NCBI GenBank assembly: GCA_002049455.2
Contig: KV919048.1
Location: 1-64,000 of the forward strand
Reading direction: 5' to 3'
DNA from: Porphyra umbilicalis
Lineage: Eukaryota; Rhodophyta; Bangiophyceae; Bangiales; Bangiaceae
DNA: 64,000 nucleotides
The translations under genes and the position numbers were made by a program. This document shows positions 3,929-61,794 of this stretch, piece by piece (position 1 is the stretch's first letter; each line of letters starts with the position of its first letter). The notes under the pieces are model-generated. The model was not told the DNA's origin. It was given only the letters and a program-made list of their open reading frames with translations, and ran no database searches.

Positions 3929-4013
3929 GGACAGCGCATTTTCAGGCGTGGAAGAGGTGCGGTCCCCGCCTGGCGAGCGATTCTGTGTTTGGGGGGCGCG
4001 ACGGGGGCGGACA

Positions 4014-4045
<32 letters not shown>

Positions 4046-4807
4046 GCGGCAATCGACATGACGGGGCGGGACGATAACAAGCGACGGGCACGCACCGTCC
4101 GGGGGGCGACGCAACAACAAAAAAACAAAAGCCGCCGCCGTAAACACAATAGCAGGAGACGCGCGCAGGACCAGGAACGCCAACAAACAAAAAAAAAACG
4201 CACGCCAAGCGGGCCACTGGCTAATTGGATGGGAACGGCGTCAGACAAACGCGCGCGGGAGGCGGGGTACGGGCGAGCAGGGGCGCCCCGCCGCGGCGCG
4301 ACGAGCGGTGCAGCCCGGGGCCGTCGCGCGCGCGCGCAAAAAAAAACAAGCAGGTTAGACAAACACGCGGAAAGGCGGCAAGACAGTACCGCCATGACAT
4401 CAACGCGCGGGCACTCGGCAGCACAAAGAAACGACGCGGGCGCGGTCACCCGCGCCGCTGCGGGTGGCGCGCGCGCGCGCCACGCGGTTCGGTGGCCACC
4501 CCCGCCTCTGTCCCGCTCTCTTGCCGCGCGTCAACGCGATGCTCGGAACGCCTGGGCACTCCTCAAGTCCGATGCATTCGAAATTAGCAATCTGCAACAA
4601 GGAGACTTGCGGTGGGTGAAACACACCAACGAAGGTAGACGCATGCTACTTTATCAGTTGTTCGAACAGAAGCTTGTCGGTTGAGACATTTCTTGCAAAT
4701 TTCAGTGCATAAGCAGATCTCGACATCTCCTTCCTGCCAGCCGCCTGCACCCGTTTGCGATCGACCCTCCGCTTCCCCGGCTGTGTCTCCGAGTAGACGC
4801 CCCGGCC
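3929..4807. promoter_or_regulatory. Divergent intergenic region between PAN3 and the kinase gene
   Basis: PAN3 is transcribed leftward and the kinase rightward from this 879-bp interval, so both promoters must lie here unless distant 5' exons exist. It holds a run of 31 G (4014-4044), A-rich patches around 4117-4135 and 4189-4200, a short alternating GC tract at 4328-4338 and another at 4468-4480. I see no canonical TATA box that I would commit to. Confidence 0.45.
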
Positions 4808-9831: not shown

Positions 9832-12206
9832 CAGTGTGTATCCGTTTATGTGATGGGTGCGTCCAAAAAGTAGCCTACGGAGCGGACCGGTTTGTTGGGG
9901 CCCATGTGAGTTCGTCGGGCCAGAAGTCGCTCGGATAATTCTGATAATTTTGTGCATAAATCTATTGCCTTCGATTGGGCCGGCCGTCGTTGCGCCCAGC
10001 AACCTTTCACAGGACCCCGACCTGCATTGACAGACACACCCGCACCAGACTGTGACAGACGGGCACAGGCGTGTACCCGACTGAAACACACAATATCTCG
10101 CACTCCCCTGGGTTCCGCCACGGACACGAAGAGGCCTCACTCGTCACTCTCACCCGCCAAAACCATGTCAACTGTCTCGTCCACTGCCGCCGCATCATCC
10201 TCCGCCCTCAACCACCGCCGGAGTGCGGACGCGCGGGCACTCTCAGTGAGCCCGTCAAACTTTGCGGCCATGGAGGTGTTGGCCATGAGTGCCACCAACT
10301 CGGAGACGTCCTGGTGGAAGTTCTCCGCCACCAGCTTCACCCCGTGGACCTGCCGGCGCACCTCGGCGGCGGCCTCGGTTGGCAGCACGTCGGCCTTGAG
10401 CCAGCAGTTGGCCAACTGCTCCGCCGAAATCTTATCCCACGCCTCCACGATAATCTTGGCCGCGTCCAACAGGTGCGCCTGGCCGCCCTCGTCCAGGCCG
10501 CCACCTCGTGGCACGCGCGGATGCGACCGCCCCGTCGTTATTAACTGGTCTAAATTTTCCACGACCCGCTGCAGCAGCCGCGTTTTGTACCGCCGCTTCA
10601 GGGCCGCGATGAAACCCGCGTCCAGAGGCTGGTACACGGCGGTGATGTTGGGCGGCAGCTCAATCACTGTCACTTGTGGGTCCGACACGCGGGAATGGGA
10701 CTTGAAATTGTCCAAGATGAGGTCGACTTGGCTGCCCGTCCGCGTCCGCAGCTCGGGGACGAACACCTCTGATAACCACCGCGCAAAAATGTTGCTGTCC
10801 GTCCACGCTGACGCCTGCGAAAAATAGGGGAGGGGTGGCTCGTTGCCGTCGCCGGCGAAGCATATCGGCTGCATGGACTTGCCAATCATAGTAATCGGCA
10901 GCTTGTGCTTCCCGGTCGCATTACAGCACAGCGTCAAGGTCACGCGATCTTTGCTCTTCATGGATTTGGAGCCCCGGGCGGTCCGCCGGTCGTCGGCTGG
11001 GACGTAGGAGCGGGAGGGTAGACCACGAAGTAGAAGCCTCGTCTCGTCGACATTGTAAATCAGATCTGGATCAACACCAGCAAGCTGCCGCCGAATCTCA
11101 TCCATGCGTGCCACCGCCTCCGCTATATTGGCGGAAGCGCCGCACCCGTGCAGGGCCACAATGACAATCCCGTGCCGGCGAGCCCAATTCTGCAAGAAGC
11201 CATTGGATGCTGTGAAGTTGGTAATCTCGAGAGCAGTCGCAATCTGTAGCGCCTTGCACCGCAGGATGGCCAGGGACATCGGCACCCGCTTGCGCCCGCG
11301 AGCCCGAACCGCGTGACACCAGGAAAGTATGCAGGCATCAATTTCGGGATAGGAGGTTGTTCTGGATGTAGGTGACTGCACCGACGCCGCCTCGGCCAGC
11401 CGCGCCAGCACGACCGCTCGCCGTCTGGACGCATTCTTGACGGCGGTCTCGGAGTACCGCCCCCCCAGCTGCTGCACGATCCACCGCCACGACTTGCCGC
11501 CGTCCTTCCACGCGATAATCTGCAGCTTGGTGCCCAGGCGCATCGGCGTGCGCTCCTTGCGGACGCCACCCACACGCCGAGAGGGTGCAGGCGCCGCTGG
11601 CGGGGCCGCCACGATAGCGTTGGCCGTCACAGCGGCTGCCCAAACCGCCGCCCGCAGACCCTGCCCCAGCTGAGGGGCGAGCACTGGGTTGGACCGCACA
11701 AGGCTTGCCTCGGCGGCGGCCGTGGCAGCATCAACCGCCGTGGCAATTGCCGTAGGTTATTGTACCTAGAGGGGCGTCTGGAGAGGGGTGGGGAGAGGGG
11801 CGTGCACGGGTACAGTGAGGGCGACAGACAGATACGCCCAAACAACCCAAATGACAGGGTTTATTACCACGCAACCAGGTCCTGCACGACAAGGGTAGGG
11901 CTCGAGATCCTCACGAGACCACCACCACCGAAGGCGGCGATCGAGAAACCGCGAGCGCGGGAGTGGGAGCTTGAAAGGTGGGTGTGGCGACGACGGTCGC
12001 GGGGGCCGTCGCGGTGGACAGCCTTGCATCAAAAAAGGCAGATCCTCGAAGTATCGCATTCAACTCCCTAACTCCCGTGTGAAATACCCTTCTGTAATAT
12101 TGATGGAGCTTGCGGTCTTCTCTGTGGAGCGTTCTCGTGCTTGGCCCGGCTTGATTTTGTGATGGGGGGTCATATAATCACGCTAGATATAAACGGATAC
12201 AGACTG
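9832..12206 (-). mobile_element. Tigger/pogo-like DNA transposon, ends defined
   Basis: The left end reads CAGTGTGTATCCGTTTAT. The reverse complement of the right end (12206 leftward) reads CAGTCTGTATCCGTTTAT, an 18-bp terminal inverted repeat with one mismatch. TA dinucleotides at 9830-9831 and 12207-12208 are the expected target duplication for the Tc1/mariner-pogo superfamily. The 2375-bp element holds one long minus-strand transposase frame (10137-11699). It is plausibly autonomous. About 550 bp at the right end (11700-12206) could hold promoter and leader. Confidence 0.88.
10137..11699 (-). CDS. Tigger/pogo-like transposase (CENP-B/DDE family)
   Basis: This is the transposase of the surrounding element, which cuts and pastes DNA into TA sites. 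An N-terminal helix-turn-helix-like region (MRLGTKLQIIAWKDGGKSW onward) is followed by a CENP-B-like second DNA-binding part (TASNGFLQNWARRHG). The DDE_1-type catalytic core has YNVDETRLLLRG (first Asp), LILDNFKSHS (second Asp) and YQPLDAGFIAALKRR (third acidic position, Asp in this group). The frame is uninterrupted to its stop at 10137. The open frame extends up to 11699, but the first in-frame ATG is at 11543. Upstream there is a stop, so either the ATG at 11543 is used (469 codons with stop) or a short 5' exon supplies the start. The two transposases of this type in the window differ clearly, so they belong to different families. Confidence 0.9.
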   Translation of the reverse strand: MRSNPVLAPQLGQGLRAAVWAAAVTANAIVAAPPAAPAPSRRVGGVRKERTPMRLGTKLQIIAWKDGGKSWRWIVQQLGGRYSETAVKNASRRRAVVLARLAEAASVQSPTSRTTSYPEIDACILSWCHAVRARGRKRVPMSLAILRCKALQIATALEITNFTASNGFLQNWARRHGIVIVALHGCGASANIAEAVARMDEIRRQLAGVDPDLIYNVDETRLLLRGLPSRSYVPADDRRTARGSKSMKSKDRVTLTLCCNATGKHKLPITMIGKSMQPICFAGDGNEPPLPYFSQASAWTDSNIFARWLSEVFVPELRTRTGSQVDLILDNFKSHSRVSDPQVTVIELPPNITAVYQPLDAGFIAALKRRYKTRLLQRVVENLDQLITTGRSHPRVPRGGGLDEGGQAHLLDAAKIIVEAWDKISAEQLANCWLKADVLPTEAAAEVRRQVHGVKLVAENFHQDVSELVALMANTSMAAKFDGLTESARASALRRWLRAEDDAAAVDETVDMVLAGESDE

Positions 12207-15091: not shown

Positions 15092-15463
15092 TATCGGCCT
15101 TCTATGTCGTGAACGCGCCGGCATTCGCGAATGCTTCCGAGCCCTCTGCCTGCCATCTGGTTGGACTTCGCTCAATCTTCTAAATCGTTTCAGGTGCCTT
15201 TGTGGACAGATCCGTCTCGCTGACGTTGTCGGTGATCAGGCCCGTTCGCAGAAGCTGTGCAGCTGCGTGCATGCATGCACCAATCTGCGAAAGAACTAAT
15301 CGCAGCGTGCAGCTGCGGAAAGTATGTTTCTTCAATTTGGTACACAAAGTATGTAATGGTGTGCCCTCGTCGACGACAGCACATGGGCACTGGCTGAGAG
15401 ACGTGGCCACATACGCTGGTCCCTTTCACACCCTTCAGGTCGTCCACTCATTTGCGCCGCACC

Positions 15464-16390
15464 ATGTTGCCACCCGCATGGCAAACAGTAACGGCGGCGT
15501 TTGCTACCAACGCCGCCGCCGCGATGCATTGCCAACGGGATAGTTTTTCCCTTCCGGTCCCCTCCTCTCCCCTGCCATCAAGATTCCACTCTACCACCAC
15601 CGACCCGGCACCACCGCACTTTTCTACCATCCCCCTGACCGTGAACGACATCCAGACTCGCTATCGTGAGCAGTTTTGTCGAGCCATGCGGATGCCTGTT
15701 GATGAATTCGTGGACCTGGTGGACAGCTTGCGCCAGATGCTGCCTCGCCTGAGACTGTCCCCCGCGTGCCGCACGGCCATTTCCTTGCGGTACCTGGGAG
15801 GAGGGAGCTATTTGGACGTTTGCGCCGCCTTTGGAGTTCATCCTTCGATCATGCACCAGGCGCTCGGGGAGGTTGTTGACGCTGTGAACACTACCCCCTC
15901 GCTTGCGTTTGATTTTGGGCTGGGCAATTGCCAGAGGCGGCTGGACTACGCCGGGGGATTTCAATTCCGGCGGAACTCACCGTTTGGTAAAGTTGTTGGC
16001 GCTCTGGATGGCGTGGCGATAGAGCAAGAGCAGCCGCTTGCCTCGGATATTCAGTGCGTTGCGGACTACTATAACCGCAAAGGCTTTGATGCTCTGAACA
16101 CACAAGCAATCTGTGATGCCGACTATCCTTTCCGCTGGATGAGCTGTTTGAGCCCAGGCTCCAGCCATGACTCCTCGGCCTTTGCTCGCACTGAGATCGG
16201 TCGCGCGCTTCTGGATCCGACCAACGTCCTGACACGTGCCACGGCCGAGGATGGGCACTGCATCGTAGCAGACGAGGCTTGTGCGGCGAGTGAGCTGTTG
16301 GCAGTCCCGTGGCCGGGGTGTGGTCGCGGTGACCGATGGAAAGATAGCTACAACTTTCACCTATCTTCCTGTCGTATTCAAATTGAGTAG
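15464..16390 (+). pseudogene. Harbinger-like transposase, 3'-defective
   Basis: The frame is open from 15452; the first ATG is at 15464. The N-terminal part shows the pattern of Harbinger transposases (MRMPVDEFVDLVDSLRQMLP, TAISLRYLGGGSYLDVCAAFG). The first catalytic Asp lies in VGALDGVAIEQEQP, and YYNRKGFDALNTQAICDADYPF and GSSHDSSAF are in place. The second motif region reads IVADEACAASELLAVPWPG, where family members have a Gly-Tyr-Pro rich block. The frame then leaves the family pattern and stops at 16390 without the last block (VVENSFGLLKGRWR type). I therefore call it inactive, unless an intron after about 16310 restores the end. Length is about 308 residues. Confidence 0.75.
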
Positions 16391-23387: not shown

Positions 23388-24140
23388 CTAATGATGTTCA
23401 GCCCAGAGATGCTCAACCAACTCATCGCGCAGGCGGAGCGCCATCTGATAGGCGCGTGTGATGCCAACATCTGGATGTACATCTTTCGGTTCGCCGTCAG
23501 TCGCATCCAGCACATCCGCCCACTCTTCCTCCTCGTCGATCAGAAAGTTGTGCAGCAGCGCGCAGGAGTCCACGATGGCCGGCACAAGCTCAATCTCCGC
23601 CGACACCTTGTCATGGAGCACCCTCCAGCGGCCCTTCAGCAAACCGAACGAGTTCTCCACTACGGCGCGTGGGGAAGGGATGCAGTAGTTGTAGAACTTG
23701 CGCTTGGGGGTCAGCTGCTGCTGGGGGTACGGTTTCAACAGCCAATACTCTAGCGATAAACCGCCGTCCAACAGGATGACGTGACCAGGATGGAGCACGC
23801 GGCCGCCAACCGTTTGCTGCCGCTCGTACCACGCGCTTTCTTGGAACGCTCGGCTGTCCCCCAACGAGCCCTGCAAGCCCGACCGAATCCAAATAAATCG
23901 CTTTCTGGCGTCAACGATCCCGAGCAGCAGCACCCCGTAAAAGCACTTTCGGGTGTTATAGGCAGCCGGAGGCGTCTGGACGCGGATCAGCGTCCCGTCA
24001 ATCACGCCGACGACACCAGCAATGCGGCACTCCAGCCGGGAGGGAGGCACGCCGAAGTGGCAGCGTGACGGGGCACGACGGGACATGGGGAGAGTGGCGG
24101 GAGCGTGAGTGACGATCGCCCGCGCTGGGGGGAGGGCCAC
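23388..24140 (-). CDS. Harbinger-like transposase, catalytic core
   Basis: This 250-residue DDE_Tnp_4-type core keeps all three acidic residues: Asp in GVVGVIDGTLI, Asp in HVILLDGGLSLEYWLLKPYP, and Glu in AVVENSFGLLKGRWR. The C-terminal LHNFLIDEEEE block is also typical. The N-terminal helix-turn-helix part seen in the transposase at 15464 is missing from this frame. It should lie upstream (24140-24590), in another exon or lost, and the open frame there showed no convincing match. The start at 24140 is the limit of the open frame, not a demonstrated start. It converges with the Myb-like gene at 21297. Confidence 0.8.
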   Translation of the reverse strand: MALPPARAIVTHAPATLPMSRRAPSRCHFGVPPSRLECRIAGVVGVIDGTLIRVQTPPAAYNTRKCFYGVLLLGIVDARKRFIWIRSGLQGSLGDSRAFQESAWYERQQTVGGRVLHPGHVILLDGGLSLEYWLLKPYPQQQLTPKRKFYNYCIPSPRAVVENSFGLLKGRWRVLHDKVSAEIELVPAIVDSCALLHNFLIDEEEEWADVLDATDGEPKDVHPDVGITRAYQMALRLRDELVEHLWAEHH

Positions 24141-25099
24141 TGGGTGGCGTCCACTGTTTGCTGTGCGCCTGTGGCCTGGTTATTGGGGTTGACAGTGTTG
24201 ACGTGTTGACGTGATGACAGGCGCTCCGGTGGCACAGCCATGACCGTTTCCAATTAGTCGGCTCAAATTAATGTTTCGACAGACATAAATCTTTGTTACG
24301 AGTAGGAGTTGCACGACCGTCACGACCGTCGTCGCTGCTTCATGTGACTGGTGCGCTGCTTCTCGCAGCCTGAGAAGCACGGGAAGCCACGGATTTGGCT
24401 TCACCCTCTTGTGGGGTCGAAAACGCGGCAGCCAGCGTGCGGATCGAAACCAACCGGGATTGCCGAATTGCCTCCAGGCATGTTCGCAGCGGCCACACCG
24501 GCGAGGAGCTTCCGGATCGTCGACAATTCGTTTGACAGTTCTCGCATGAGAGAAACTGTAAACACACGAGACGTGGAGTTCCCCGTTCTCAGACGGTATA
24601 TCGCGGTACAAACATACGCGGGGATCACGCCTAGTTAAGACCCCCCTTCTCCGGACTTTTGGGTTGATTGGTCAATCCTGCTGGCAGCACCCGAATACTA
24701 AAACTCTATTGGTTGAGCGACCTCATGCAAGGTGTTTTTTGAACAACACCAGAACATTGATCAAAGTTCTTGCCGTTGCCACGATTGACGCTGCCATCCA
24801 ATGAGAGATCGATCCCTGCTGAAACAGCAGCCTGTGGTTCTTTTCGTCAGCGCTCTCGCAGGCTGTGACATTGCTTGTGGCAGTAAAACGTTGGGCTGCC
24901 TGGCCCCTGTTTTCAATTTGACTTGGCGTGGGAAGGGTGACTGACGCCGTGCGAAGGTCAAAAATTCGACCTTCACACGCTGCCATGTCACCTGTAGTGC
25001 GACGGAAGATTGCGGTCAAGTCGATGGCAGCCTAACCCAACCACCACAGCCCTGGCCTGGAAGCCACTGATACACTTTTACTGTACGCTCTTCAACTAT

Positions 25100-44294: not shown

Positions 44295-46841
44295 TCACCG
44301 GACCTTGCCACCCTCGGGCACGCCGTCAGACGACACCCGTACCCCCTCCCCGCCCCCTTGCCTCGGCATCACCCGCAGCGCGTGCGTCTTGTCAAACAGG
44401 ATGTCCCCCTGTTTGCCGACGCGCAGGCGCTTGGCCGCCGCCTGGAATGTTGCCCGGTCGAGTGGCACCGCCGGCAGCGCCACCGTCGCGCCGGCAGGCG
44501 CGACCGCGTCACCCACCGCCGGCGCCACCCCCCCCCCGCCGGCCGCGTCCGCAAAAGCGAGCACGCGCGTCACCTTTTTCTTGTCCGCCGCAAGGATCAT
44601 GGCGCGCGACTGGACGCCCGCGAGCGTCGCGGGCGCCATGTTGCACGCAACGACCACGCGGCGGTCGCGGAGCTCCTCGACGGTGTAGGCGTCGCGGAGG
44701 CCCGCCACCAGCGGCCGCGTCGTCGGCGTACCGTCCGCGTCCGCCTCACCAACGTCGACCGTCGCCACGTACAGGCGGTCCGACTCGGGGTGGGGCGCCA
44801 CCGACGCGACGCGGCCGACGCGGAGGTCCATGACAAACGCGTCGCTGGCGGCGGTGGCGGCGGTGGCGGCGGCGGCGGCCGCGTCGCCGGCCGCCGCCGC
44901 GGGCGCGCCCGCAAAGCGGCCACGGAACGCCTCCGCGTCGGCCGCCGAGATGAGAGAGAAGAGGGGTGTCGGCTTGGCCGCCGTCGCGTGACCCGCCGGC
45001 AGCAGCGGCGGGGAAAAGGTCGTCGGCAGCGCCACCGCCGCGTCGGTCCGGTCGACGCCGAGCCGCGCGAGCGCGGCGGCCGACCAGGCCTGCCCGAGAA
45101 ACGGTTCGAGGAGCGACGCGAGGAGGACAACGACGCTGGCAGAGTAAGCGAGCGCCGACCCCGCCGCCGCCGCGTCCGTCTTGACCGTGTGCCATGGTTT
45201 GGCGGCTTGGAGGAATTGGTTGCCGAGGCGGGAGACAGCCATGGCGCACTTGAGGGCGGCCTTGATGGACAAGCCGTCAAAGGCTTCGAGGTAGGCCGTC
45301 AGCTCCGCGTTGATGGCGGCGGTCGACTCGACGACCGCCGCGTCCGTCGTGTCGAGCGCCGGCACGACCGCGTCAAAAGTGGAGGCCAAGAACGTGGCCG
45401 TCCGGTGCATAAAGTTGCCTAAGTTGTTGAGCAGCTCATCATTGTTCTTGGCCCGCAAGTCAGACCAGGTGAACGTCGCGTCGGCCGTCTCGGGCCGGTT
45501 GACGAGGAGGTAGTAGCGCCACACGGCTCGATCAATGCCCGTTTCGCGAGCGCCGGTGCCAAAGACGCCGACGCCGCGGGACTTGGAGAACTTGCCAGCC
45601 TCGTACTGCAGGTACTCGGTCGTCGACAGGTGCCGTACCATTGTCCACGGGCGGCGGCTGCCCAGCTGGGCCGCGGGGAACACCACCGTGTGGAAGGGCA
45701 CGTTGTCCTTGCCCATAAACTGGATCAGTTCCACCTTGGGCCTGGCGCCCGTCGGGAGTGCGGCGCCCTCCCCGCGAGCACCCGCGGCCGCCTTGGACGC
45801 GGCCGCCCCCGCTTCGTCTGCCGCCGACGACGACGCGACCGTGGGCGTCACCCCCTCCGACGCGGGCGTCGGTGGCAGCGGCGGCCGGTCGCTCGCCTCC
45901 CACCACTCCCGCCAGTGGTCCGGCGCGTACTCGGCGGTGATGCTCAGGTAACCGATAGGCGCGTCAAACCACACGTAAAACACCTTGTCGGTGAAGCCGT
46001 CGAGGGGCACGGGCACCCCCCAGTCGAGGTCCCGCGTAATGCACCGCGGCTGCAGGCCGTCGCGGAGCCACGTTTTGGTCATGGACACGGCGTTGGCCGA
46101 CCAAAAGCCGCCCCCCGCCTGGGTGTCCTTGGACCACCGGTCGACCGCGTCGGCCAACGCGGGCAGGTCGAGAAAGAGGTGGCGGCTGGCCCGCGTCTCG
46201 GGCGTCTGCCCACACGTCGCGCAGCATGGGCGCAGCAGCTCCGCCGGGTTGAGCAACGCGGAGCAGGCATCACACTGGTCCCCGCGGGCGTCCTCGTAGC
46301 CACACATGGGGCACGTGCCGACAACATACCGGTCCGCGAGCGGCCGCTGACACGTCGCCGCGCAGTAGAGCTGGTGCACGTCGTCGGGGAAGACCAGCCC
46401 CGCCTCGTGGAGCGCCCAAAACATCTCGTGCACGATGGCCGTCTGTGAGGGGGTGGACGTGCGGCCAAAGTGGTCGAAGCGGATGTCAAACCAGTCGTAG
46501 ACGCCCGCGTGGAGGGCGGTGAAGCGGTCGCAGATGGTGCGGGGAGTGACTCCCTCCTGTTGCGCCTTGTTTTCCGTCGCTGTCCCGTACTCATCCGTGC
46601 CGCACACGTAGATGACGTTGACGCCCCGCTGGCGCAGGTACCGCGCGTAGACGTCGGCGGAGAGGACGGCGCCGACGAGGTTGCCCAGGTGCGGCACGTT
46701 GTTGCAGTAGGGTAGCGCAGACGTCACCAGGACGTTACGCTGCCCGGCAATGGGGCGGCGGGGGGTGGGGCGAGCAGCCGCAGCGTCAGCCGCGCCGCCG
46801 TTGACGCTCAGGCCCGCCAGCTGATCGCTGGCGGCCTCCAT
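44295..46841 (-). CDS. Methionyl-tRNA synthetase with C-terminal tRNA-binding domain (cytosolic type)
   Basis: Charges tRNA-Met with methionine for translation start and elongation. The 848-residue product has the class I HIGH-type motif as PHLGN (50-54), the GTDEYGTATE active-site block (81-90), zinc knuckles (CAATC 160-164, CPMC 177-180, CDAC 190-193, CCATC 206-210), the DWGVPVPL and FYVWFDAPIGYLS blocks, and the KMSKS-type motif KFSKS (417-421). An anticodon-binding helical domain follows. After an Ala-rich linker, an EMAP-II/Arc1p-type OB fold begins near residue 680 (DLRVGRVASVAPHPESDRLY, LVAGLRDAYTVEELRDRRVV, NMAPATLAGVQSRAMILA). This is the architecture of plant cytosolic MetRS. The ATG at 46841 is used because an open frame slightly upstream lacks an ATG. 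No targeting peptide is visible. One exon. Confidence 0.95.
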   Translation of the reverse strand: MEAASDQLAGLSVNGGAADAAAARPTPRRPIAGQRNVLVTSALPYCNNVPHLGNLVGAVLSADVYARYLRQRGVNVIYVCGTDEYGTATENKAQQEGVTPRTICDRFTALHAGVYDWFDIRFDHFGRTSTPSQTAIVHEMFWALHEAGLVFPDDVHQLYCAATCQRPLADRYVVGTCPMCGYEDARGDQCDACSALLNPAELLRPCCATCGQTPETRASRHLFLDLPALADAVDRWSKDTQAGGGFWSANAVSMTKTWLRDGLQPRCITRDLDWGVPVPLDGFTDKVFYVWFDAPIGYLSITAEYAPDHWREWWEASDRPPLPPTPASEGVTPTVASSSAADEAGAAASKAAAGARGEGAALPTGARPKVELIQFMGKDNVPFHTVVFPAAQLGSRRPWTMVRHLSTTEYLQYEAGKFSKSRGVGVFGTGARETGIDRAVWRYYLLVNRPETADATFTWSDLRAKNNDELLNNLGNFMHRTATFLASTFDAVVPALDTTDAAVVESTAAINAELTAYLEAFDGLSIKAALKCAMAVSRLGNQFLQAAKPWHTVKTDAAAAGSALAYSASVVVLLASLLEPFLGQAWSAAALARLGVDRTDAAVALPTTFSPPLLPAGHATAAKPTPLFSLISAADAEAFRGRFAGAPAAAAGDAAAAAATAATAASDAFVMDLRVGRVASVAPHPESDRLYVATVDVGEADADGTPTTRPLVAGLRDAYTVEELRDRRVVVACNMAPATLAGVQSRAMILAADKKKVTRVLAFADAAGGGGVAPAVGDAVAPAGATVALPAVPLDRATFQAAAKRLRVGKQGDILFDKTHALRVMPRQGGGEGVRVSSDGVPEGGKVR

Positions 46842-47253
46842 GGTTGGCAAACCCCAGGGCTAGCGGCAGCCGACACGAGTTGGAGACGCGGGATGCAGGG
46901 GCGGCGCGGTAGTAGCAAGACGCCGTTGAAACCGGCAGGTCAATGGCAGTGGTAATCGTCAGCGAGGCAAACAGTGGCACGCGCGGAGGCAGTCTGGGGA
47001 GTTCGGGTCGACGTCGTGACGTCGCTGGACGTCGACGTCCTCGACTAGCCCACGGAAAAACTGTCGGGTGGCAATAACATCATCAGAAGTACATACAATT
47101 GATCCGACTTGTCTACCGAAAACCTTTTTATGCCACCGCAGGGAGAGACGACGCACATGTGCCGTAGGACAATTTACCAGAGTGGCCCTGGGCCGACCAG
47201 GCGCCCGCACAGTCTCTGTGACCTCCGTCAAACAACCCATCTTCCCCCGTCTC

Positions 47254-52360: not shown

Positions 52361-55081
52361 CAGTGCAACCCCTCACTTGACCTGGGGTAGGACATGAGAG
52401 TGGCCCTCCGCGTCCGATCCATCATCTTTCAATGACACGCCTTGAGGTGCGTTTCCACGGACAGGCTGTGTCGAACGAGCCTCAATTTTACCAACTAAGT
52501 TCTCGCAAGTTCCGACCAATTGACGACCGAGCGAATCAATTTCGCTCGGCTTGGTTGCTCATGGCTTGTCTCTGTCGGACGCGGCACAGATCCGTCTTGG
52601 TCGTGGTCACCTGTCGAGCCGACTGCCGCTTTGACTTGGCGAACTCAGAGCCACAAGCAGCGACAACCCACTGAACGTGCAATGAGAGAAGCCGCGCGGG
52701 TGCGGACCAGTTGTGGGGGATGGGGGACAACCAATGCGTGTGCTCGGGCCACGCGTGGTCCAGTGCGTGATGTTGCGCACCGCGTCACCTGTCTAAATCA
52801 TGCTGTGCGCCGGAAAACTCCTCCCCCAGCTTGCGTCGGTATGCAAGCTGGCTGCCGCTCAGGCGAGGTCGGCTCAGGCTCCGGTTGGCATCAGATAAGC
52901 GAGATAGAGAAGATAATTTTATCACCACGTCTCGGTCTCCTCACCCACTGCAGCAAAGATAGAATCTGGGCTGGTCTCCTCATCCAACCACTGCACAATA
53001 ACGTCGAGTGCATCTGGGTGAGTCCCCGACACAAAATGATTCGCACTGGGAGCTTCGCCCGCTGCACTGCCGTCCGGCTCGAGACTGCGCGCCTGGCCGA
53101 GCATCGTCACAATCTCCCGGGCATCGTCGACCCGCGGCGCCGCCGGTTCGGGCACGCCCGCCGCCACCGCCTCCAGGCGGGCCCGAATCTTGTCGTGCAC
53201 GTCCACCGGAGTGCAGCTGGCCCGTAGCCAGCAACGCATGATGGACGCGGGAGTCACTGCGTCAAACGCCGCCTTGACGAATTGCATTGCGTCGAGCACA
53301 TGCGGGCTCCGACCATCCGCCACGCCCAAGGCTCCCGGCTTCGCCCGTGTCTCGCGCGCCTTGCGTGCGGCACGCTCGTCCGACGTTTCGTCAAAGTGCT
53401 TGTCAAACGTCGTGAGCATGCCGAGCATCATCTCGCGTCTGTACGTGGTCTTCGTTGCGTTAATCACGCCTTGATCACAGGGTTGAAAACGCGCCGTCGT
53501 GTTCGGCGGCAACCAATCAATGTCGAAGCGGGCATTTTTTGCCGACGCATCGTGACCCGACGCATTGTCCATCACCAGGAAGCCCCGCTTGTTCGTGAAC
53601 GTAGCCCATTCGTCGCTTAGGTCGGTCAACCACTTGGCGTAGACCGTGGAGTCCATCCACCCTTTTCGTTGGGAATAATACCGTACCGGTAGGTCGGAGT
53701 TCCCGCGGAAGCAGACCGGCTGAGCCGCCTTGCCAATGACAGCAATTGACTTGAAGGTTCCTGTCGCATTGACCGTGATGATGAGCGTGATTCGCGCCTT
53801 GGCCCGTTGTAGCTCCGTCCCGCGCGCCTCCTTGGCGTCACACTCGAGAACGTAGGAGTTGGATGGAGCGAGTTGATAAAACAATGCAGCCTCGTCCATG
53901 TTCAGTATACTCTCAGGATCCATACCAACCATCTTCTCCCGCAATACAGCCATCCTCTTCTCTCCCTCCACCAAGTCAATCCCTCCCCCCGACCCATGCA
54001 AATGCACACTCCGTATCGCGTGGCGCTTAACCCATCGGTCCACAAACCCGTTGGAAGCCGCAAAGTGCTTCCCCGGGTAGTGTCGACGAGCGAGCTCGCT
54101 CGCCTTGACTTGCAGAGCATGTCGAGAGATAGGCATCTTTTTGCGGCCCATCGATCGAATACGCATAAACCACTCAAAAAGCAGTTGGTCAACGAGCGGA
54201 AAGCGGCACACTTGGATGCAGCGGGCTCCCAGAGGCACACCGCGGGCGGCGGCCGCCCAGGAGTTGACACGCCCCTGCCACACGCCGTATATCGCCCGCT
54301 TGGTGACACCGTAGCGTGCAGCCAGCGCCTCCCGCGGCACCTTGTCAGCGCACTGCGTGATGATCAACAGCTTCTCCCCCAACAAGAGGGAGCCACGGAT
54401 CTTGCGCTCCTTGCTGGATGGAAGTGTACTCGTTGATGGCGCTGCCACAACCGGCGCAGCCGGAGTCGCGGTCACCGCGAGAGGGGGGGGGGTGGTTGCT
54501 CCCGTGGCCGCGGCGTCTCGCACCGTGTTATGCACGACGCCCAGAGCGGTCGCTGCGGCAGAGTTCAGAGCCTCGATGGCTTCTGAGCTCGCGCCTACGA
54601 CAGCGGAGGCATTGGGAGCCAAAGCCGCCGCCGTGAGCAGAGACGCAATGAAAGAGAGAGGCTGGGATTGGGGGGTGGGGGCGGGAGAAGCACCCTCCAT
54701 CTTACAATGGAGGGGCAAAGGAGATGTCTGGGGATGGCGGAGGAAAAGAACTGTCGGTGCGGGGAAAGACGGTCGACGGCGACCGCTGTTGGCCGCTTGG
54801 TGAGGTGACTGTGGAGGTGGCCAGCTGCGCATGTTGACGTGAGAGGAAAAGTCGGTTGTGCGTGGGGCAGTACCCCAGAAATGAGAGTCAAAAATACAAT
54901 ATGTCCTGCTTTCAAGTACATATGGCCCCCATAAAAGCTGATTCTATGATGCAAACGCACATGCATGGAAGGCGACAAATAAATCCAAAATAGTTTATCT
55001 ATGGGGGCTACTGAGGTGGACCCTCCCCTCAGTTGTGCCGATCGGAACAACTGCGGGACGGTCAAGTGAGGGGTTGCACTG
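52361..55081 (-). mobile_element. Tigger/pogo-like DNA transposon, complete with perfect ends
   Basis: The ends are a perfect 22-bp inverted repeat beginning CAGTGCAACCCCTCACTT (52361-52382 and 55060-55081), flanked by TA on both sides (52359-52360 and 55082-55083). The 2721-bp element holds one uninterrupted transposase frame. It looks whole, and the identical ends point to a recent insertion. It sits 219 bp upstream of the YME1-type start codon, so it may have displaced part of that promoter. Confidence 0.95.
52922..54700 (-). CDS. Tigger/pogo-like transposase (CENP-B/DDE family), intact
   Basis: The N-terminal part is Ala/Ser/Pro-rich. A CENP-B-like helix-turn-helix follows (LLLGEKLLIITQCADKV, REALAARYGVTKRAIYGVWQ), then a second DNA-binding part (HFAASNGFVDRWVKRHAIR). 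The catalytic core keeps Asp in ESILNMDEAALFYQLAP, Asp in GFLVMDNASGHD and Asp in RFQPCDQGVINATK, the DDD form usual for this group. About 592 residues from the ATG at 54700; an in-frame ATG at 54832 would add 44 more. There is no stop or frame change. It differs clearly from the transposase at 10137-11699. Confidence 0.93.
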   Translation of the reverse strand: MEGASPAPTPQSQPLSFIASLLTAAALAPNASAVVGASSEAIEALNSAAATALGVVHNTVRDAAATGATTPPPLAVTATPAAPVVAAPSTSTLPSSKERKIRGSLLLGEKLLIITQCADKVPREALAARYGVTKRAIYGVWQGRVNSWAAAARGVPLGARCIQVCRFPLVDQLLFEWFMRIRSMGRKKMPISRHALQVKASELARRHYPGKHFAASNGFVDRWVKRHAIRSVHLHGSGGGIDLVEGEKRMAVLREKMVGMDPESILNMDEAALFYQLAPSNSYVLECDAKEARGTELQRAKARITLIITVNATGTFKSIAVIGKAAQPVCFRGNSDLPVRYYSQRKGWMDSTVYAKWLTDLSDEWATFTNKRGFLVMDNASGHDASAKNARFDIDWLPPNTTARFQPCDQGVINATKTTYRREMMLGMLTTFDKHFDETSDERAARKARETRAKPGALGVADGRSPHVLDAMQFVKAAFDAVTPASIMRCWLRASCTPVDVHDKIRARLEAVAAGVPEPAAPRVDDAREIVTMLGQARSLEPDGSAAGEAPSANHFVSGTHPDALDVIVQWLDEETSPDSIFAAVGEETETW

Positions 55082-55083
55082 TA

Positions 55084-55499
55084 CGGGACGACGCAGGTCG
55101 TCGTGCGGTGCTGCGCTGGCCGTCTTCCACTACCAAGTCCCTCCTACTGAGGCCGGCAGAGGTGTCAAGTTCCCGTTTAACTACTTGACAGTGCTTGTAT
55201 ACTTAACGTACGGTTGGATTTTTTCTCCTATCCAGGACGCTAATGCCGGGTCTATTCTGGCGCGTGGGGTTGCGGTGGTGCGTGCTCCGAGACACCTCGG
55301 GTGGCCACAACCCGCCTGTGCAGGTATGTGGGGTTACCGCAAGTCGATGGTGGCAGGCTCCTTGCCCTCTCCCCTCCCCAGAGGGCGCCCCGCCGCTTGG
55401 CTGCTTGACTGACTGGCTGCTCATCCCCCACCACCCCCGGGCCTCCTCTCCCAGCTCTGTTCGCAACACCGGCTGCACCGGCATCTCCGTCAGGAGACC
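55084..55499. other. Spacer between the Tigger element and the gag fossil
   Basis: This 416-bp stretch has no gene that I recognise. It may contain leader sequence of the Copia fossil, but I could not identify a long terminal repeat or primer-binding site in it. Confidence 0.35.
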
Positions 55500-57070
55500 A
55501 TGGCCGACTCGGACGCATCGTGGGGCTACGTCGCGCCGCTGGACGACGAATACCCCTCGTGGTCCATCCAGTTTCAAGCGTTCCTGGTGTTTCACGACCT
55601 GTGGGACGTCGTGCAGAACGGGGTCGACGCGGCTCCCGAGCTAGCGGCCGAGAACGCGGCGGCCGACGGCGCGGTGGCCGCCACGGCCGCAGCCGCGGCA
55701 CATGCGGAGCTCGTTCGGCGGGACCGACGGGCGCACGCGGCCATCCTGCTCGGGGTCAAGCAGCGCCACCGGGGCACGGTGTCGGCGGCCAAGACGGCGC
55801 GGGCGGCGTGGCTCGCCCTCGAGGCGGTGGGGCTGAGGACGGCCCGCGCGCGGCGGCAGCGTCTGAACCGTGAGCTCGGCTTCCTCGAGCGCGGGGCGGC
55901 CGAGTCAGCCCTATCCTATGCGCGCCGCGCAAAGGCCCTGGCAGAGGACCTGGTCGCCGTCGGCGAGCTGGAGAAGGTCGCCAACATGATGGCCATATTC
56001 CAAGCGTTGGACGGCGTCGCGGTCGACCACGAGGGCCTCGCCGAAGCCCTCCATTTTGACTTGGATTCCTTGACGTGGGACCGCTTCCTGGCTGCCGTCG
56101 AGCGTGCAGAGACGATGAACGAGATGCGAGCGGCTCGGCGGGGGGGGGAGGGGCTCCTCGGGAGGGGGGCAGCAGCGGCGGCCGCCGGTCGCCGCGTGGC
56201 GCTAAGAGCATTGTTAACAATGAGATGCTATCCCCATATTCAAGCCACGTTGCACAACGTGTCCCATTAAGCACCTGAAGTCCGATGTAACACCACTTTT
56301 TAGACGAAGAAGCCCTTTTTTTTGTTCGGGCCATGGAAATCGAACTACCTACTTGATTCTAGCTTCCGCTGACCAAGAATAGCTTTGCGGCTATCGCTTT
56401 TCTATTTCGAGTCGGAATAGCTTTTAGGATAGCCGAGGCTATCTCACGGGGGCCTCTGATTGGCCCATGTGATGGATCAACGACCCGTTTCACAGCAAAT
56501 AGTAGCACGTGGCTGCAACGTGTGCGCCACGTCTGCAAGATTGACTGCCAGTTTCTTCTGGGCAGAGGTGGTGGGAACGTCCGCAAGAGCTGTCGTGCAT
56601 GGCAATGGTCCTACAGTGACGTCCTTCTAGGCGTGGTCGTCATCAAGTGCTGCACATTTTGACCTGTTTCTTTGTCCGTCTGCCGACGAGCGTTCTCTGC
56701 GCCTTCGTTATGGTTGATACGGCTGCTCACCACAGTTGTCATCTGCCGCTGCAGTGAATCAAGTCCTGGCAGAAAATATCGTCTTGATCGGGCCCAGACA
56801 AGGCCTGGTGTAAGGAAACCTGCGGGTACTTAGGCTCATGACAGCACAGCAGCCAACCGCTGACGTACATGTGGCTGTCTAAGGACGCGGACTTGGTTCT
56901 AGAATGGAATAGCCGATAGCGATAGCCTGAGTTGTTGGCAATGCTCTAAGGCGGTTATGTGTTGGGCGTGCAACAAGCAGGGCCACCGCCGCCGGGACTG
57001 CTGGTCGGTGCACCCTGAGAAGCGGCGCGACGGTGGCGGGCGTGCCATGACGGAGTTGATCATGTGAGCG
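55500..57070 (+). mobile_element. Ty1/Copia-type LTR retrotransposon fossil (gag region), broken
   Basis: A gag-like frame begins at 55500 and shows the pattern of Copia-type gag (UBN2-like): WSIQFQAFLVFHDLWDVVQN, AARAAWLALEAVG and a leucine-rich helical region. A CCHC zinc-knuckle region lies near 56960-57000. The two are separated by a 741-bp MITE. No protease, integrase or reverse transcriptase is visible in the window and no terminal repeats were found. The element is a broken relic; its age cannot be judged without the terminal repeats. Confidence 0.7.
56206..56946. mobile_element. Harbinger-like MITE inserted in the gag fossil
   Basis: The left end reads GAGCATTGTTAACAA and the reverse complement of the right end GAGCATTGCCAACAA. 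A further shared block (GCTATC) follows. TAA flanks both sides (56203-56205 and 56947-56949), the 3-bp target typical of PIF/Harbinger. The 741-bp element is AT-richer than its host, non-coding, and rich in GGCTATC-type motifs inside. Its ends differ from those of the two larger Harbinger elements in the window, so another family mobilised it. Confidence 0.8.
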
Positions 57071-57739
57071 GCCGGCCGGGTGCGTGCCGACGTTGGGGGA
57101 GGGGGGTGACAACAAGGTACCCGTGCCGCCCTCTGTCGTGACGGTGGTGAACCGAGCTGTTGGGGGCATCTCTTGGGTTAGCGGCGCGCGCTCTGGTTGA
57201 GGCCTTCGCGGGGATGGTAGATGCCATAGCACACTCCTGGACAGATGGCAGGGAGGCCCATCGGTGCAGTATTCATGTACTTGTCGTCGGCCACCATGGG
57301 TCGTCAACAGCACACAGCTGTTCCAATACATCTGTAGGCTTTCTGTGTCTTCTTCGTTCATTTCTCGTTTCGATATTGCTGTTGCTGTGATGAAGCGGGA
57401 CGGAGGGGGGGGGTGCAGTTCAACGGCGCCGAGCGTCCCGTCCTCTGTGCCGCCACTTCGTTTTTTTTCCGTCGCACGTGCGTGCCGTCGGGTTCGACAC
57501 CACGGGGATCCCACGCCCCCAGCGCGACGCGGCGCGGCTCACGGTCTACACACTGCCCCATTCGCTCCGGCGCGGGGCGACGCTTCGGAACCCAACACCT
57601 CTCCCGGAACTGGACAGAAAGCACAGCGGTCAAGGGTGTGAGCCAACGTCACAGACAGGAACGCTGGGCACCGGCTCTTCCAACCTACATCTGTACTACA
57701 ATATAATAAATCATACTCGCGGCCTCTTACACATGTGTA
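57071..57739. other. Spacer without an identified gene
   Basis: This stretch follows the gag fossil and precedes the tRNA gene. Its frames are short and show no family motif. A GGATCCCACG-containing GC-rich patch lies near 57508. It may include more of the fossil in unrecognisable form. Confidence 0.35.
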
Positions 57740-57838
57740 GCAGTCGTAGCTCAGTTGGTTTCGAGAGCCCAGCAAGAGCGCGCGCCTCACACGCGCGAGG
57801 TCGTGGGTTCAAGTTCCGTGAAAGTCCCACCGACTGTA
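57740..57838 (+). tRNA. tRNA-Val (CAC) with two introns outside the anticodon loop
   Basis: The mature parts are: acceptor GCAGTCG (57740-57746), TA, D stem GCTC, D loop AGTTGGTT up to 57760, then A and GAGC (57775-57779), G, anticodon stem CGCGC, loop CTCACAC (57786-57792, anticodon CAC at 57788-57790), stem GCGCG, variable loop AGGTC, T stem GTGGG, T loop TTCAAGT (57808-57814), T stem CCCAC (57826-57830), acceptor CGACTGT (57831-57837), discriminator A. Two inserts interrupt this: 14 nt in the D loop (57761-57774) and 11 nt at the 3' edge of the T loop (57815-57825). Without them the stems pair fully (one G-U, at position 1-72) and the length is 74 nt. With them the acceptor stem cannot pair. 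The D-loop insert boundaries could shift by a base. No anticodon-loop intron and no encoded CCA. Confidence 0.85.
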
Positions 57839-57840
57839 TG

Positions 57841-57845
57841 TTTTT
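57841..57845 (+). terminator. RNA polymerase III terminator
   Basis: TTTTT starts three bases after the tRNA discriminator base, as expected for a transcribed tRNA gene. Confidence 0.85.
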
Positions 57846-58917
57846 GTAATTCGCTTGGGAACCCGCGGGCGCGCACTGGGGGGGGAGAGCAAGGGGGGGG
57901 GGGGGGGGGGGGGTGGATATGGGCCGACCGCGACCGCCACCCGGCCACTCTCACCAGGGTTGAGGTTCGTGAGGCGTTGCCCCCGGAAATGCCAGGGGGC
58001 AGGAGAAATGGCGACCAGCTTGCGACACAGTGGGACGGGGCCTCTTCCTTAAAATTTTCTGGAGCCCGGATTGAAATAGGTGAGGGATCATCCGAACGAT
58101 TTGGCCAGGTTGATCTCAGGTTCACGTCAGGATGGGATGGGAGACATCCTCGAAAATATCCCTGGTTGAGCTTGAGACAAGCATGGGATCGTTCGAATGA
58201 GTAGTCCCTTGGAAGATTCCAAACTTGGGATGACGCGATTGCCAGGTCATTCTCCGGATGGACTTGCGGATGAAGCACGGAAGCGCTCATTTGCCGCATA
58301 TTGGATGGACGAGCGAATCATCCACAGGCCTGATTGCGCGAAGGTAAGAAAACAGGCCTTGGGATGGCCGCCGAGATGGACTGCGGGATAAACGTGCGGC
58401 AGGCTGCAGGATAAAACGCCAGATATTTTCCGGAATATTTCCGCTATAGGCCCAAGAATGAGCCTCTGTCGTGCTCTCGGAGAAATCCTGTGCGACGGTA
58501 AGTGTGCGAACAAAAGAGACAGTCTCGCCGACTGTTAAAAGGAAAGAAAATAAAGCGTACTGTCGGATACCCTCGGACACAATCCCCGAGCATGCTCACG
58601 TAGGGGCGTAAACGTGAACATCTGAAGTGATCGTCGAAGTGTCTTCGAAGACATATAGGCACCTGAGAGCTAGGCAAGTACAAAAATATTGCAACTGGAA
58701 TGTTCCTCAACAAAAGCCGGGAACAGTATCTCTTGCGTGCTGGTGGTGGCAGCACCTTACAGCGGGAGATGGCCACGGCAGAGCGGCGAGCACACCTCGC
58801 CGGCGATGTCCCAAGTCGCCTTTCCCAGTTTCGAGGTCTGCTAAGGCCAGTGCGCTTGCCTGCGCCTGCGACTGTCTCCAGGTACCTCCTCACCACTCAG
58901 TCACTCGCCAGGGCACC
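57846..58917. other. Left flank and subterminal region of the CACTA-like element
   Basis: A run of 21 G (57893-57913) lies close to the tRNA. The 58060-58420 part carries repeated GGATGG-type motifs. The left end of the CACTA-like element should fall between the tRNA terminator and about 58060; CACTGGGGGG at 57875 is a candidate, but the matching right end lies outside the window. A donor-like AGGTAAGA at 58337-58344 and an acceptor-like CTCCAG at 58875-58880 hint at a 5' intron. Confidence 0.4.
58060..58420. repeat. Subterminal cluster of GGATGG/GGGAT motifs
   Basis: GGATGG or GGGATG-type units occur about ten times within 360 bp (around 58130-58140, 58187, 58226, 58256, 58302, 58362-58390). 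They are mostly in one orientation, upstream of the transposase gene. CACTA-type elements carry such short subterminal repeats as transposase-binding sites. That role here is an inference. Confidence 0.5.
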
Positions 58918-61794
58918 ATGCCTAGCCATAAGCGACGAAAGCGTCTACCGGCCTACTTCAACTTTAGTGATGCGCTTCTACCTCACGTCGCTCCCATAAG
59001 TTTAGAACGTGGTGCGGGAGCGGTTACTGGGCAGAGTGGTGCTGCAGTCAGTCGTTCGCGCCAGACTCTTACAGCCGAACAATACAGGACAGATCCGACG
59101 AGTGCCCCAGGCCTTCACACCCCCGTTGGCGTCCCCTTATCGGGTGGCAGCGACTCGGACTCTGAGGGCGGTGATGATTCAGACACATCGGCTTTTTCGG
59201 ACGGCGTGGCTGATTGGAGCGGAGCTGAAGACGTGGACTTTTCTTCTGACGAGGAGGAGCCCGCGGGCGGCTTCTCCTCGCGTCGCGAGTTTGTCTGCTT
59301 CGGGTATCTCTTTGGTCGCTCCCGCGTTTCTAAAAGACAGTACGACGTCATGCGTGAAGCAGAGAACGCTTTCGAGCCCGTGGAACCGTGGCCTTCACGC
59401 TTCCGCCTCCACAAGATCCGAAAGGAGATGATGCGTTTCGCTGCACCCGTTAAAGAGGTGAGAACCTCTCGCTACGTACCTATTGGGAAAGGCAAAGAGC
59501 CCCGCAGGTTACCAGATTGCAGCGTCTTCTACACTCCCTTTTCCGACCACATTAAAAGAGACTTCGCTGACGGTGCCACCGCATCATTTTTCCACCAGTC
59601 TGGGGACGCGCGACTTGGAACGCTCGAGCGCCCAACGGAGTTCTTTCAAACAGTTGTCGCACGAGACCCATCACACTTTAACGCTAGGAATGGCTTCCGG
59701 CTAGGTGGCACTCTGTATACGATCGGTTGTGTGGCGACTGTCGACTGCACAGCATCGCAGCAGATCACTGCAACGCTGCAGAGCACTGGCATCGCGGAGC
59801 TTGGTCAAATCACTATCAGCCCGGGCTCGTATGCTCCACCAGACGCGCTTCGAGTTGGTGACTTCATGGCATCTTTCACGGTGAGCGAGAACTCTGTGAT
59901 TCCTCCTCATCTGCGGGAATGCTTCTCGGAGGGCGGTTTATTCACTCTCCGATTTGTGCGGGCAGGAAGTGTGTACATTGCAACTCCAGTGGAGCCTGAT
60001 GGCGAAGAGCCCAGCGCGTGGTTCCTGCTGCCAGGGTCAGAGCCTCTCAAGCTGCTACAAGCGGCAGAAAAGCCGTCACTGTCTGTACCGCAAAAGGATC
60101 CGTACGCCGTGTATGTATCGTTGTATGGTGACGAGTACGCGGTCCACAAGCGCCGACGAGGAAACGTCATGGGCCTGTACGGTGCGTACGCTTCCATTAC
60201 TCTGGAGAACAGGAGGCACTCCGTGCGGCCTTTGGCATACCTTCCTCCCGGAGCAGACGCCGGCCCAGTCGTTAAGGCCATTGTTGAAGACTTGATATCT
60301 CTCGCAAAAGAAGGTGTCGTTGTGTATGACGCTGTCACCAAGAAAGATGTTCTTGTACACGTTTTTCCGTGCATGGGAGTGTTTGACTTTCCAATGGCTG
60401 CAAAGTACTCTAGCTCTATTGGAGCGAGTGGTACCGAGCACTGCACTAGCTGTGACATTGTCCAGCCAAAGACGAGGACAGAGCGACGGGATCGGGCCAA
60501 GAGCAGTGTGGATACGTTCGACGTCAGAGACGTCCGCTTCGCTCGCATACAGGAGCGCACGTCCGCCATCATTTCGAGAGTCAAAGGAACACCGAACCTT
60601 TCTACAGCGGCTATGAAGTGCGCCCTCCTGCTGAATGGCGTGACAGTTGGTACTGGTGACGACTTCTTGCGGTTGACGGAAGGGAGAGGGCCTGGGTCTT
60701 TTGATGTACATGAGCATGTCATCGCAGCGCCTTCCCATCTCATATACTACGGCATGGCGTCACAGCTTCTTGAGGAGGCTTATGGCGCGCTCTCAGTTGA
60801 ACAGCGGGACCTCCTGGTGCGGCAGGTGCGAGCGTGTGCCGCACATGTACCCACGTACACTGTTTTGACCACTTTCGAGCCCGAGAAGATGGGGGGAACG
60901 ACACTCTCAATGTCAGACTACGCCGTCCTACTTACTGTGACTCCGACAGTGCTGGAATCCATACTGAGGGGCGGCACTACAGTGCCGCACCAAGCGGCAC
61001 TTCTCCGGGCACTGTTGTCGCTACGAGGATTTGCGTCGACTCTGTTCTACCACCCTAGCATAGCCTCTGACGGAGAGCATGCCGTTAAGACAAAGCCAAA
61101 TGTGCAGGATCTGCAGCGCCTAGGAGAGCAGGTGATGCAAGATATTAGATCTCTCTCAGTGTTTGGGAAAAGCTGGGAGAAGCCGACCGTTCATCGTTTC
61201 CTCGAGCTCATCTATCGGTCTCTTCCCCTCATACAGCTTGGGCCATCCATGTGCGAGCTCATATTTGAGAAGTTCCATCAGGTATCAAAGCACGCAGTTC
61301 TGCGTAGCAATGGCCACAACTCCGCGGACTACTCGATGAACTATTGGCGAGACGCAGAGCTCATCTCGCGTGCCGTGTCACAGCCCGAAAAGCACGGCCT
61401 ATGCAGGTCGTGGTTCCTCAATCAAAAGGGATCGTTGATGAAGGCAGTAAGTCAGCATCGCCTGGCTGCCGGTGTGCTTGCTGCAGCAGAGCAAACAATT
61501 TTATGGAGAGCAGGCCGTCAGATTCATGGACAGGCTCCTGAGTCAATGTGGATGGATGTCCGGGCTGGGGTGGACCTCCGTTTCTGGAAGACAGCGAGGA
61601 ACCAGAAGAAGAGGTTCACTGTGCGCTCGGGAAGTACAGTGTACGTGCGGCCAACAGAAGAGAACATTGGTGCTTGTGACCAACAGGGGCGCTTCCTTCA
61701 CGTACGCTCCATTGGGTCTATTGATGACAAGCTGCACTTCTGCTGTGCGGCTTGGTCCTTCAAAAACACAAACACCACAGAACCAAACGGCTAA
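58918..61794 (+). CDS. CACTA/EnSpm-like transposase (Transposase_21-type)
   Basis: The 958-residue frame is uninterrupted from the ATG at 58918, which begins with a basic cluster (MPSHKRRKRLP) and an acidic Ser/Asp/Glu region. A central block reads VVKAIVEDLISLAKEGVVVYD, then LVHVFPCMGVFDFPMAAKYSS, then GTEHCTSCD. This follows the CACTA/tnp2 pattern of an LxxELxxLxxGVxTYD block, a DFPAY-like motif and a CxxC knuckle. A late helix with FEKFHQVSKHAVLRSNGHN is typical of the C-terminal part of CACTA/Plavaka-like enzymes. Similarity is clear in order and spacing but not strong, so the related Plavaka or KDZ groups remain possible. An upstream extension of the open frame to 58627 has no ATG. It converges with the JmjC gene, 467 bp away. 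The gap 61795-62261 between them holds only their 3' ends. Confidence 0.7.
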   Translation: MPSHKRRKRLPAYFNFSDALLPHVAPISLERGAGAVTGQSGAAVSRSRQTLTAEQYRTDPTSAPGLHTPVGVPLSGGSDSDSEGGDDSDTSAFSDGVADWSGAEDVDFSSDEEEPAGGFSSRREFVCFGYLFGRSRVSKRQYDVMREAENAFEPVEPWPSRFRLHKIRKEMMRFAAPVKEVRTSRYVPIGKGKEPRRLPDCSVFYTPFSDHIKRDFADGATASFFHQSGDARLGTLERPTEFFQTVVARDPSHFNARNGFRLGGTLYTIGCVATVDCTASQQITATLQSTGIAELGQITISPGSYAPPDALRVGDFMASFTVSENSVIPPHLRECFSEGGLFTLRFVRAGSVYIATPVEPDGEEPSAWFLLPGSEPLKLLQAAEKPSLSVPQKDPYAVYVSLYGDEYAVHKRRRGNVMGLYGAYASITLENRRHSVRPLAYLPPGADAGPVVKAIVEDLISLAKEGVVVYDAVTKKDVLVHVFPCMGVFDFPMAAKYSSSIGASGTEHCTSCDIVQPKTRTERRDRAKSSVDTFDVRDVRFARIQERTSAIISRVKGTPNLSTAAMKCALLLNGVTVGTGDDFLRLTEGRGPGSFDVHEHVIAAPSHLIYYGMASQLLEEAYGALSVEQRDLLVRQVRACAAHVPTYTVLTTFEPEKMGGTTLSMSDYAVLLTVTPTVLESILRGGTTVPHQAALLRALLSLRGFASTLFYHPSIASDGEHAVKTKPNVQDLQRLGEQVMQDIRSLSVFGKSWEKPTVHRFLELIYRSLPLIQLGPSMCELIFEKFHQVSKHAVLRSNGHNSADYSMNYWRDAELISRAVSQPEKHGLCRSWFLNQKGSLMKAVSQHRLAAGVLAAAEQTILWRAGRQIHGQAPESMWMDVRAGVDLRFWKTARNQKKRFTVRSGSTVYVRPTEENIGACDQQGRFLHVRSIGSIDDKLHFCCAAWSFKNTNTTEPNG

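Follow-up and report, generated by a model that had tools for sequence, protein, structure and literature searches.

Can a 99-nt stretch that ordinary tRNA finders pass over be a working tRNA-Val(CAC) gene, interrupted once in its D loop and again in its T loop by very short introns? The question is raised by a single locus in the window, that is, the whole 64,000-nt stretch of DNA that was analysed, and it deserves attention because two tiny introns in unusual places are rare and would require an unusually permissive tRNA-splicing enzyme. A first-pass annotation of the same DNA had proposed such a gene, and its coordinates, plus strand and anticodon CAC all stand unchanged. The parts of the predicted gene are as follows.

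57740-57838, + strand: tRNA-Val(CAC) gene with two inserts, 99 nt
57740-57760, + strand: exon 1, comprising the 5' acceptor strand, positions 8-9, the 5' D stem and the D loop to 20a
57761-57774, + strand: predicted D-loop intron, 14 nt, at 20a/21, with BHB geometry in 1 of 12 registers
57775-57813, + strand: exon 2, comprising A21, the 3' D stem, the anticodon arm, the variable loop, the 5' T stem and the T loop to 59
57788-57790, + strand: anticodon CAC, inside exon 2
57814-57824, + strand: predicted T-loop intron, 11 nt, at 59/60, with BHB geometry in 1 of 5 registers
57825-57838, + strand: exon 3, comprising position 60, the 3' T stem, the 3' acceptor strand and the discriminator A73

Computational recognition of this locus depends on its two inserts. 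On the raw genomic sequence ARAGORN called 0 tRNA genes in the window and its intron options returned nothing there, and the tRNA locus was unmatched by Rfam at gathering scores; a sub-threshold Rfam tRNA match to the locus scored 27.6 bits where 29 are required; it spans model positions 8-63 of 71 and contains a long insertion in the D loop. Twelve variants were then made by combining each of six D loops (the original and five shortened ones) with each of two T loops (the original and a shortened one). ARAGORN called tRNA-Val(cac) in exactly the five variants whose inserts were both shortened, and the other seven gave no call. All five shortened D loops were called, thus ARAGORN alone cannot pick among them. 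These variants confirm the earlier proposal that removal of 14 nt from the D loop and 11 nt from the T loop leaves a 74-nt cloverleaf, and the fully paired stems with one G-U pair that it described are found as 21 of 21 stem pairs, the G-U being the first acceptor pair. The 74-nt product also carries every one of the 21 bases on a list that we take to represent the tRNA consensus, and A73 is present. The tRNA halves lie in normal order and the locus is thus not circularly permuted; a scan for 37/38-type permuted tRNA genes, which was run without a null, found none in the window.

Where exactly the inserts begin and end was decided by their pairing potential with the flanking exons. BHB splicing cleaves a 3-nt bulge between its second and third bases. 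The motif itself is described as a 4-bp helix with 3-nt bulges (PMC4090602). The boundary of the T insert is ambiguous because AAGT stands at both of its ends (57811-57814 and 57822-57825), and five registers give an identical mature loop. In two of these five the loop can accommodate a 4-nt exon strand, and BHB geometry arises in one, in which exon UUCA (54-57) pairs with intron UGAA between the bulges AG|U and AG|U; the intron is therefore placed at 57814-57824, between 59 and 60. The direct repeat at its ends might reflect the origin of the insert. For the D loop, twelve registers leave 8-10 nt beginning AGUUGG, and again BHB geometry is found in one, pairing exon UUGG (16-19) with intron CCAG between the bulges UU|U and CA|A, which places the intron at 57761-57774, between 20a and 21; in this register the bases A14 and G15, which face the D bulge, remain unpaired. 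A 4-bp exon-intron helix between 3-nt bulges is present at both inserts, in the relaxed form of the motif, and a clear inner helix is absent at both the D and T sites. Among random stretches taken from 56-60 kb, the T helix occurs as Watson-Crick pairs in 0.31% and with G-U in 1.8%, whose counterpart for the D helix with G-U is 5.4%, rising to 19.7% when a cut at any of 4 places is accepted. Because of these rates, the T site makes a persuasive candidate BHB site and the D site is only supportive, the D-loop helix being weak evidence. The predicted position 59/60 exactly matches one known for introns of the C. merolae kind, and 20a/21 adjoins 20/21, another such position; 20/21 and 59/60 are described as junction positions in the permuted pre-tRNAs of C. 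merolae (PMC3978253).

The surroundings of the gene hold two putative transcription signals.

57702-57709, + strand: TATA-like element TATAATAA, 38 to 31 bp upstream of the first tRNA base
57841-57845, + strand: T5, likely polymerase III terminator, starting 3 nt downstream of the gene

With both strands counted, the element TATAATAA occurs a single time in the window, and 4 of 100 shuffles contain it at least once. Of 63984 16-mers, 3 contain at least 15 A/T, including the one that starts at 57700. The TTTTT that had been noted behind the gene does start 3 nt past the discriminator base, but T5 runs abound in the window, whose two strands together hold 150 overlapping matches against 50 expected, and this position is therefore suggestive only. 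Inspected against the A and B box consensus, the gene has an intact A box, and the T insert changes its B box. In C. merolae, tRNA genes are described as preceded by TATA-like sequence and followed by a T stretch, introns of 11-69 bp often split their A and B boxes, and the TFC1 and TFC3 homologues are reported missing (PMC3978253). Both flanking signals of such a transcription unit are present here. A run of 21 G also lies at 57893-57913, approximately 50 nt downstream of the tRNA gene.

We consider it quite probable that the locus is a working nuclear tRNA-Val(CAC) gene, transcribed by polymerase III, whose two ectopic introns are removed by the tRNA-splicing endonuclease. The sequence, its pairing potential, one BHB register per insert and the flanking signals are in hand. 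The ARAGORN variants, the intact tRNA body, the BHB registers and the flanking signals support well the two ectopic introns of the first-pass annotation as far as sequence can, and from these we infer the splicing itself. Transcription by polymerase III would probably be driven by the upstream TATA-like element and would end at T5. In the precursor, folded as a cloverleaf, the short exon-intron helices would prolong the D and T arms and form the relaxed BHB sites, and the tRNA-splicing endonuclease would cut within the bulges at four BHB-type sites. A ligase would join the exons, the ends would be trimmed and CCA added, endonuclease and ligase being the presumed acting enzymes, and the final 74-nt tRNA, once charged, would read GUG, which as GTG is the most frequent valine codon in all five ORFs counted.

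The main rival is that the locus represents a tRNA-Val pseudogene, which gained two small insertions while an intact copy elsewhere does the work. Short D- and T-arm insertions in eukaryotic tRNA genes are described as mostly hitting one of many synonymous genes and as supposed pseudogenes (PMC4090602), and the T insert between two AAGT copies is what a small duplication-type insertion might leave. Decay of this kind would have to have spared everything else, as there is no other damage to the tRNA body (all consensus bases on the list are kept and all stems are paired), would have to have produced two inserts that both suit BHB geometry and known positions, and would have left the gene flanked by the TATA-like and T5 signals. 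We therefore regard a pseudogene as unlikely, though deserving of serious consideration.

Another view of the inserts concerns the precursor itself. It had been claimed that the sequence as it stands has no acceptor stem, and this is wrong for the RNA: the MFE fold of the raw 99-mer is a cloverleaf with 7 of 7 acceptor positions paired, in which pairing with the inserts makes the D and T arms longer. The failure is thus one of recognition by the finders (ARAGORN and Rfam at gathering scores) and not of acceptor pairing. The folding energy of the raw 99-mer has a z-score of -1.91, and an equal or better energy is reached by 7 of 200 shuffles. In MFE folds, which leave out modification and tertiary contacts, neither the spliced 74-mer nor the form lacking the D insert alone takes the standard cloverleaf. 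These two folds weigh against the spliced reading, as do the G-U at the first acceptor pair, the unpaired A14 and G15 and the missing inner helices. The cloverleaf of the precursor would suit a tRNA that functions unspliced with enlarged D and T arms, yet we find this very improbable, since the contact between D loop and T loop shapes the tRNA and the inserts would disturb it, and the match to known splice-junction positions would be left unexplained.

Under rules that use generic tRNA bases and were composed once the finding was already known, a strict cloverleaf scan (D and T inserts of at most 60 nt, no mispairs, at most one G-U per stem) found one match on both strands of the window, the tRNA-Val locus, and none in 2029 order-2 Markov windows (260 Mb of strand), and a looser scan with three insert sites (D at most 40 nt, after position 37 at most 60 nt, T at most 40 nt; at most one mispair and three G-U in total) again found this locus as the sole match in the window and none in 2284 random windows. 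With that reservation on the rules, the counts bear out the earlier remark that the restored cloverleaf is hard to explain by chance. Chance resemblance, or a tRNA-derived repeat such as the transposon genes of the neighbourhood might bring to mind, is extremely improbable: the random windows were empty, no direct or inverted repeat within 57600-58100 reaches 12 nt, and neither scan found a second locus of this type in the window.

How does a working gene with two ectopic introns compare with known systems? The annotation had pointed to ectopic tRNA introns in Cyanidioschyzon-type red algae, in agreement with the descriptions of C. merolae (PMC3978253). There, as here, the introns lie in the D and T arms, several may occur per gene and the BHB motif is relaxed (PMC3978253, PMC4090602, PMC9602550), and their length starts from 11 bp (PMC3978253), compared with the 14 and 11 nt of our locus. 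On the other hand, the genome of C. merolae is small and averages 0.005 introns per gene (PMC3594237), whereas the window carries several transposon genes, and expression and processing were tested in C. merolae, whereas both are predicted for the present gene. In the nucleomorph of Guillardia theta, introns of 3-24 nt are described at non-canonical D- and T-arm positions, with excision confirmed by RT-PCR, and several tRNA genes there have two or three introns, tRNA-Val(AAC) among them (PMC4090602). The very short D- and T-arm introns, their multiple occurrence per gene and the presence of a tRNA-Val are thus shared with our locus, but many of the nucleomorph introns are without a defined BHB motif (PMC3978253), and Cryptomonas nucleomorphs have 24-28% GC (PMC9548191) against 63.7% in the window. 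Archaeal tRNA introns likewise share BHB-type recognition, the positions 20/21 and 59/60 and several introns per gene (PMC4090602), whereas the window encodes eukaryotic nuclear proteins. In a table of 2014 the eukaryote entered for multiple-intron tRNA genes is C. merolae (PMC4033280), and another review of that year adds the Guillardia nucleomorph (PMC4090602). Among the top-ranked literature matches, where subscription journals are thinly covered, we noticed none that describes ectopic tRNA introns from a bangiophyte.

The host of the gene must be judged from the rest of the window, in which the following genes were recognized.

1562-4186, - strand: Pan3 pseudokinase-domain protein, open for 874 codons
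7757-8164, - strand: sybindin-like protein
44298-46859, - strand: methionyl-tRNA synthetase (MetRS) with C-terminal tRNA-binding domain, open for 854 codons
49252-52035, - strand: FtsH-type AAA protease (AAA + M41), open for 928 codons
62262-63977, - strand: JmjC-domain protein
10137-11699, - strand: transposon gene
52922-54832, - strand: transposon gene
15452-16390, + strand: transposon gene
23391-24179, - strand: transposon gene
55413-56267, + strand: transposon gene
58627-61794, + strand: transposon gene

The transposon genes comprise two of DDE_1 with Tc5-type HTH, two of DDE_Tnp_4, one copia-type gag and one weak Transposase_21 below the cut-off. The best PDB match of MetRS, whose catalytic part holds a low-complexity stretch of about 50 residues, is a cytoplasmic methionine-tRNA ligase, and that of the FtsH-type protease is mitochondrial YME1. 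Because of its encoded proteins, including this cytoplasmic-type MetRS and YME1-like protease, a eukaryotic nuclear origin of the window is well supported. An FtsH pattern matched at least 595 stretches in genome_contigs, at least 570 of which encode relatives; the titles of the best 80 of these at least 570 name genera that we take to be alphaproteobacterial, one giving 'Proteobacteria' only. Such relatives would fit a mitochondrial-type FtsH and are silent on the host lineage. Other pattern searches gave no match for a transposase, one match for JmjC that is not a relative, and 0 matches in viral_contigs for a 27-nt exact pattern.

Among bangiophytes, 63.6% GC and 0.7 introns per validated gene are given for Pyropia yezoensis (PMC3594237), and 70.06% GC for Neoporphyra haitanensis (PMC8752119). 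The GC content of the window, its long uninterrupted ORFs (854-928 codons) and its transposons are compatible with the bangiophyte host that the first-pass annotation suggested, these being non-specific traits. C. merolae itself is an unlikely host in view of GC and transposons. A green prasinophyte would presumably also be allowed by the GC content. Green algae, however, are described as almost without atypical tRNA introns (PMC3978253), and a nucleomorph is unlikely at the GC of the window when set beside the Cryptomonas values (PMC9548191).

The gene is an addition to a known kind, that of ectopic BHB-type tRNA introns occurring several per gene as in C. merolae. A wider reading, which we hold to be evenly balanced, is that ectopic BHB introns and TATA-driven tRNA transcription occur in a transposon-bearing red algal nucleus outside Cyanidiophyceae. 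They would then not be peculiar to algae whose genomes are very small or reduced, and many red algae would be expected to possess a permissive splicing endonuclease resembling that of archaea. The splicing endonucleases known from eukaryotes are believed to find position 37/38 by gauging its distance from the tRNA body (PMC3978253), hence D- and T-arm introns must be recognized in some other manner. Interest in the locus rises if its host lies outside Cyanidiophyceae. If the reading is true, this would be a second free-living nuclear genome with such introns, leading one to ask whether they had a single origin in red algae, and whether ectopic introns go with genome reduction, with a missing Sen15 or with missing TFIIIC subunits, both Sen15 and TFIIIC subunits being reported missing in C. 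merolae (PMC3978253). In such genomes, ordinary finders would then report too few tRNA genes, just as ARAGORN passed over tRNA-Val(CAC).
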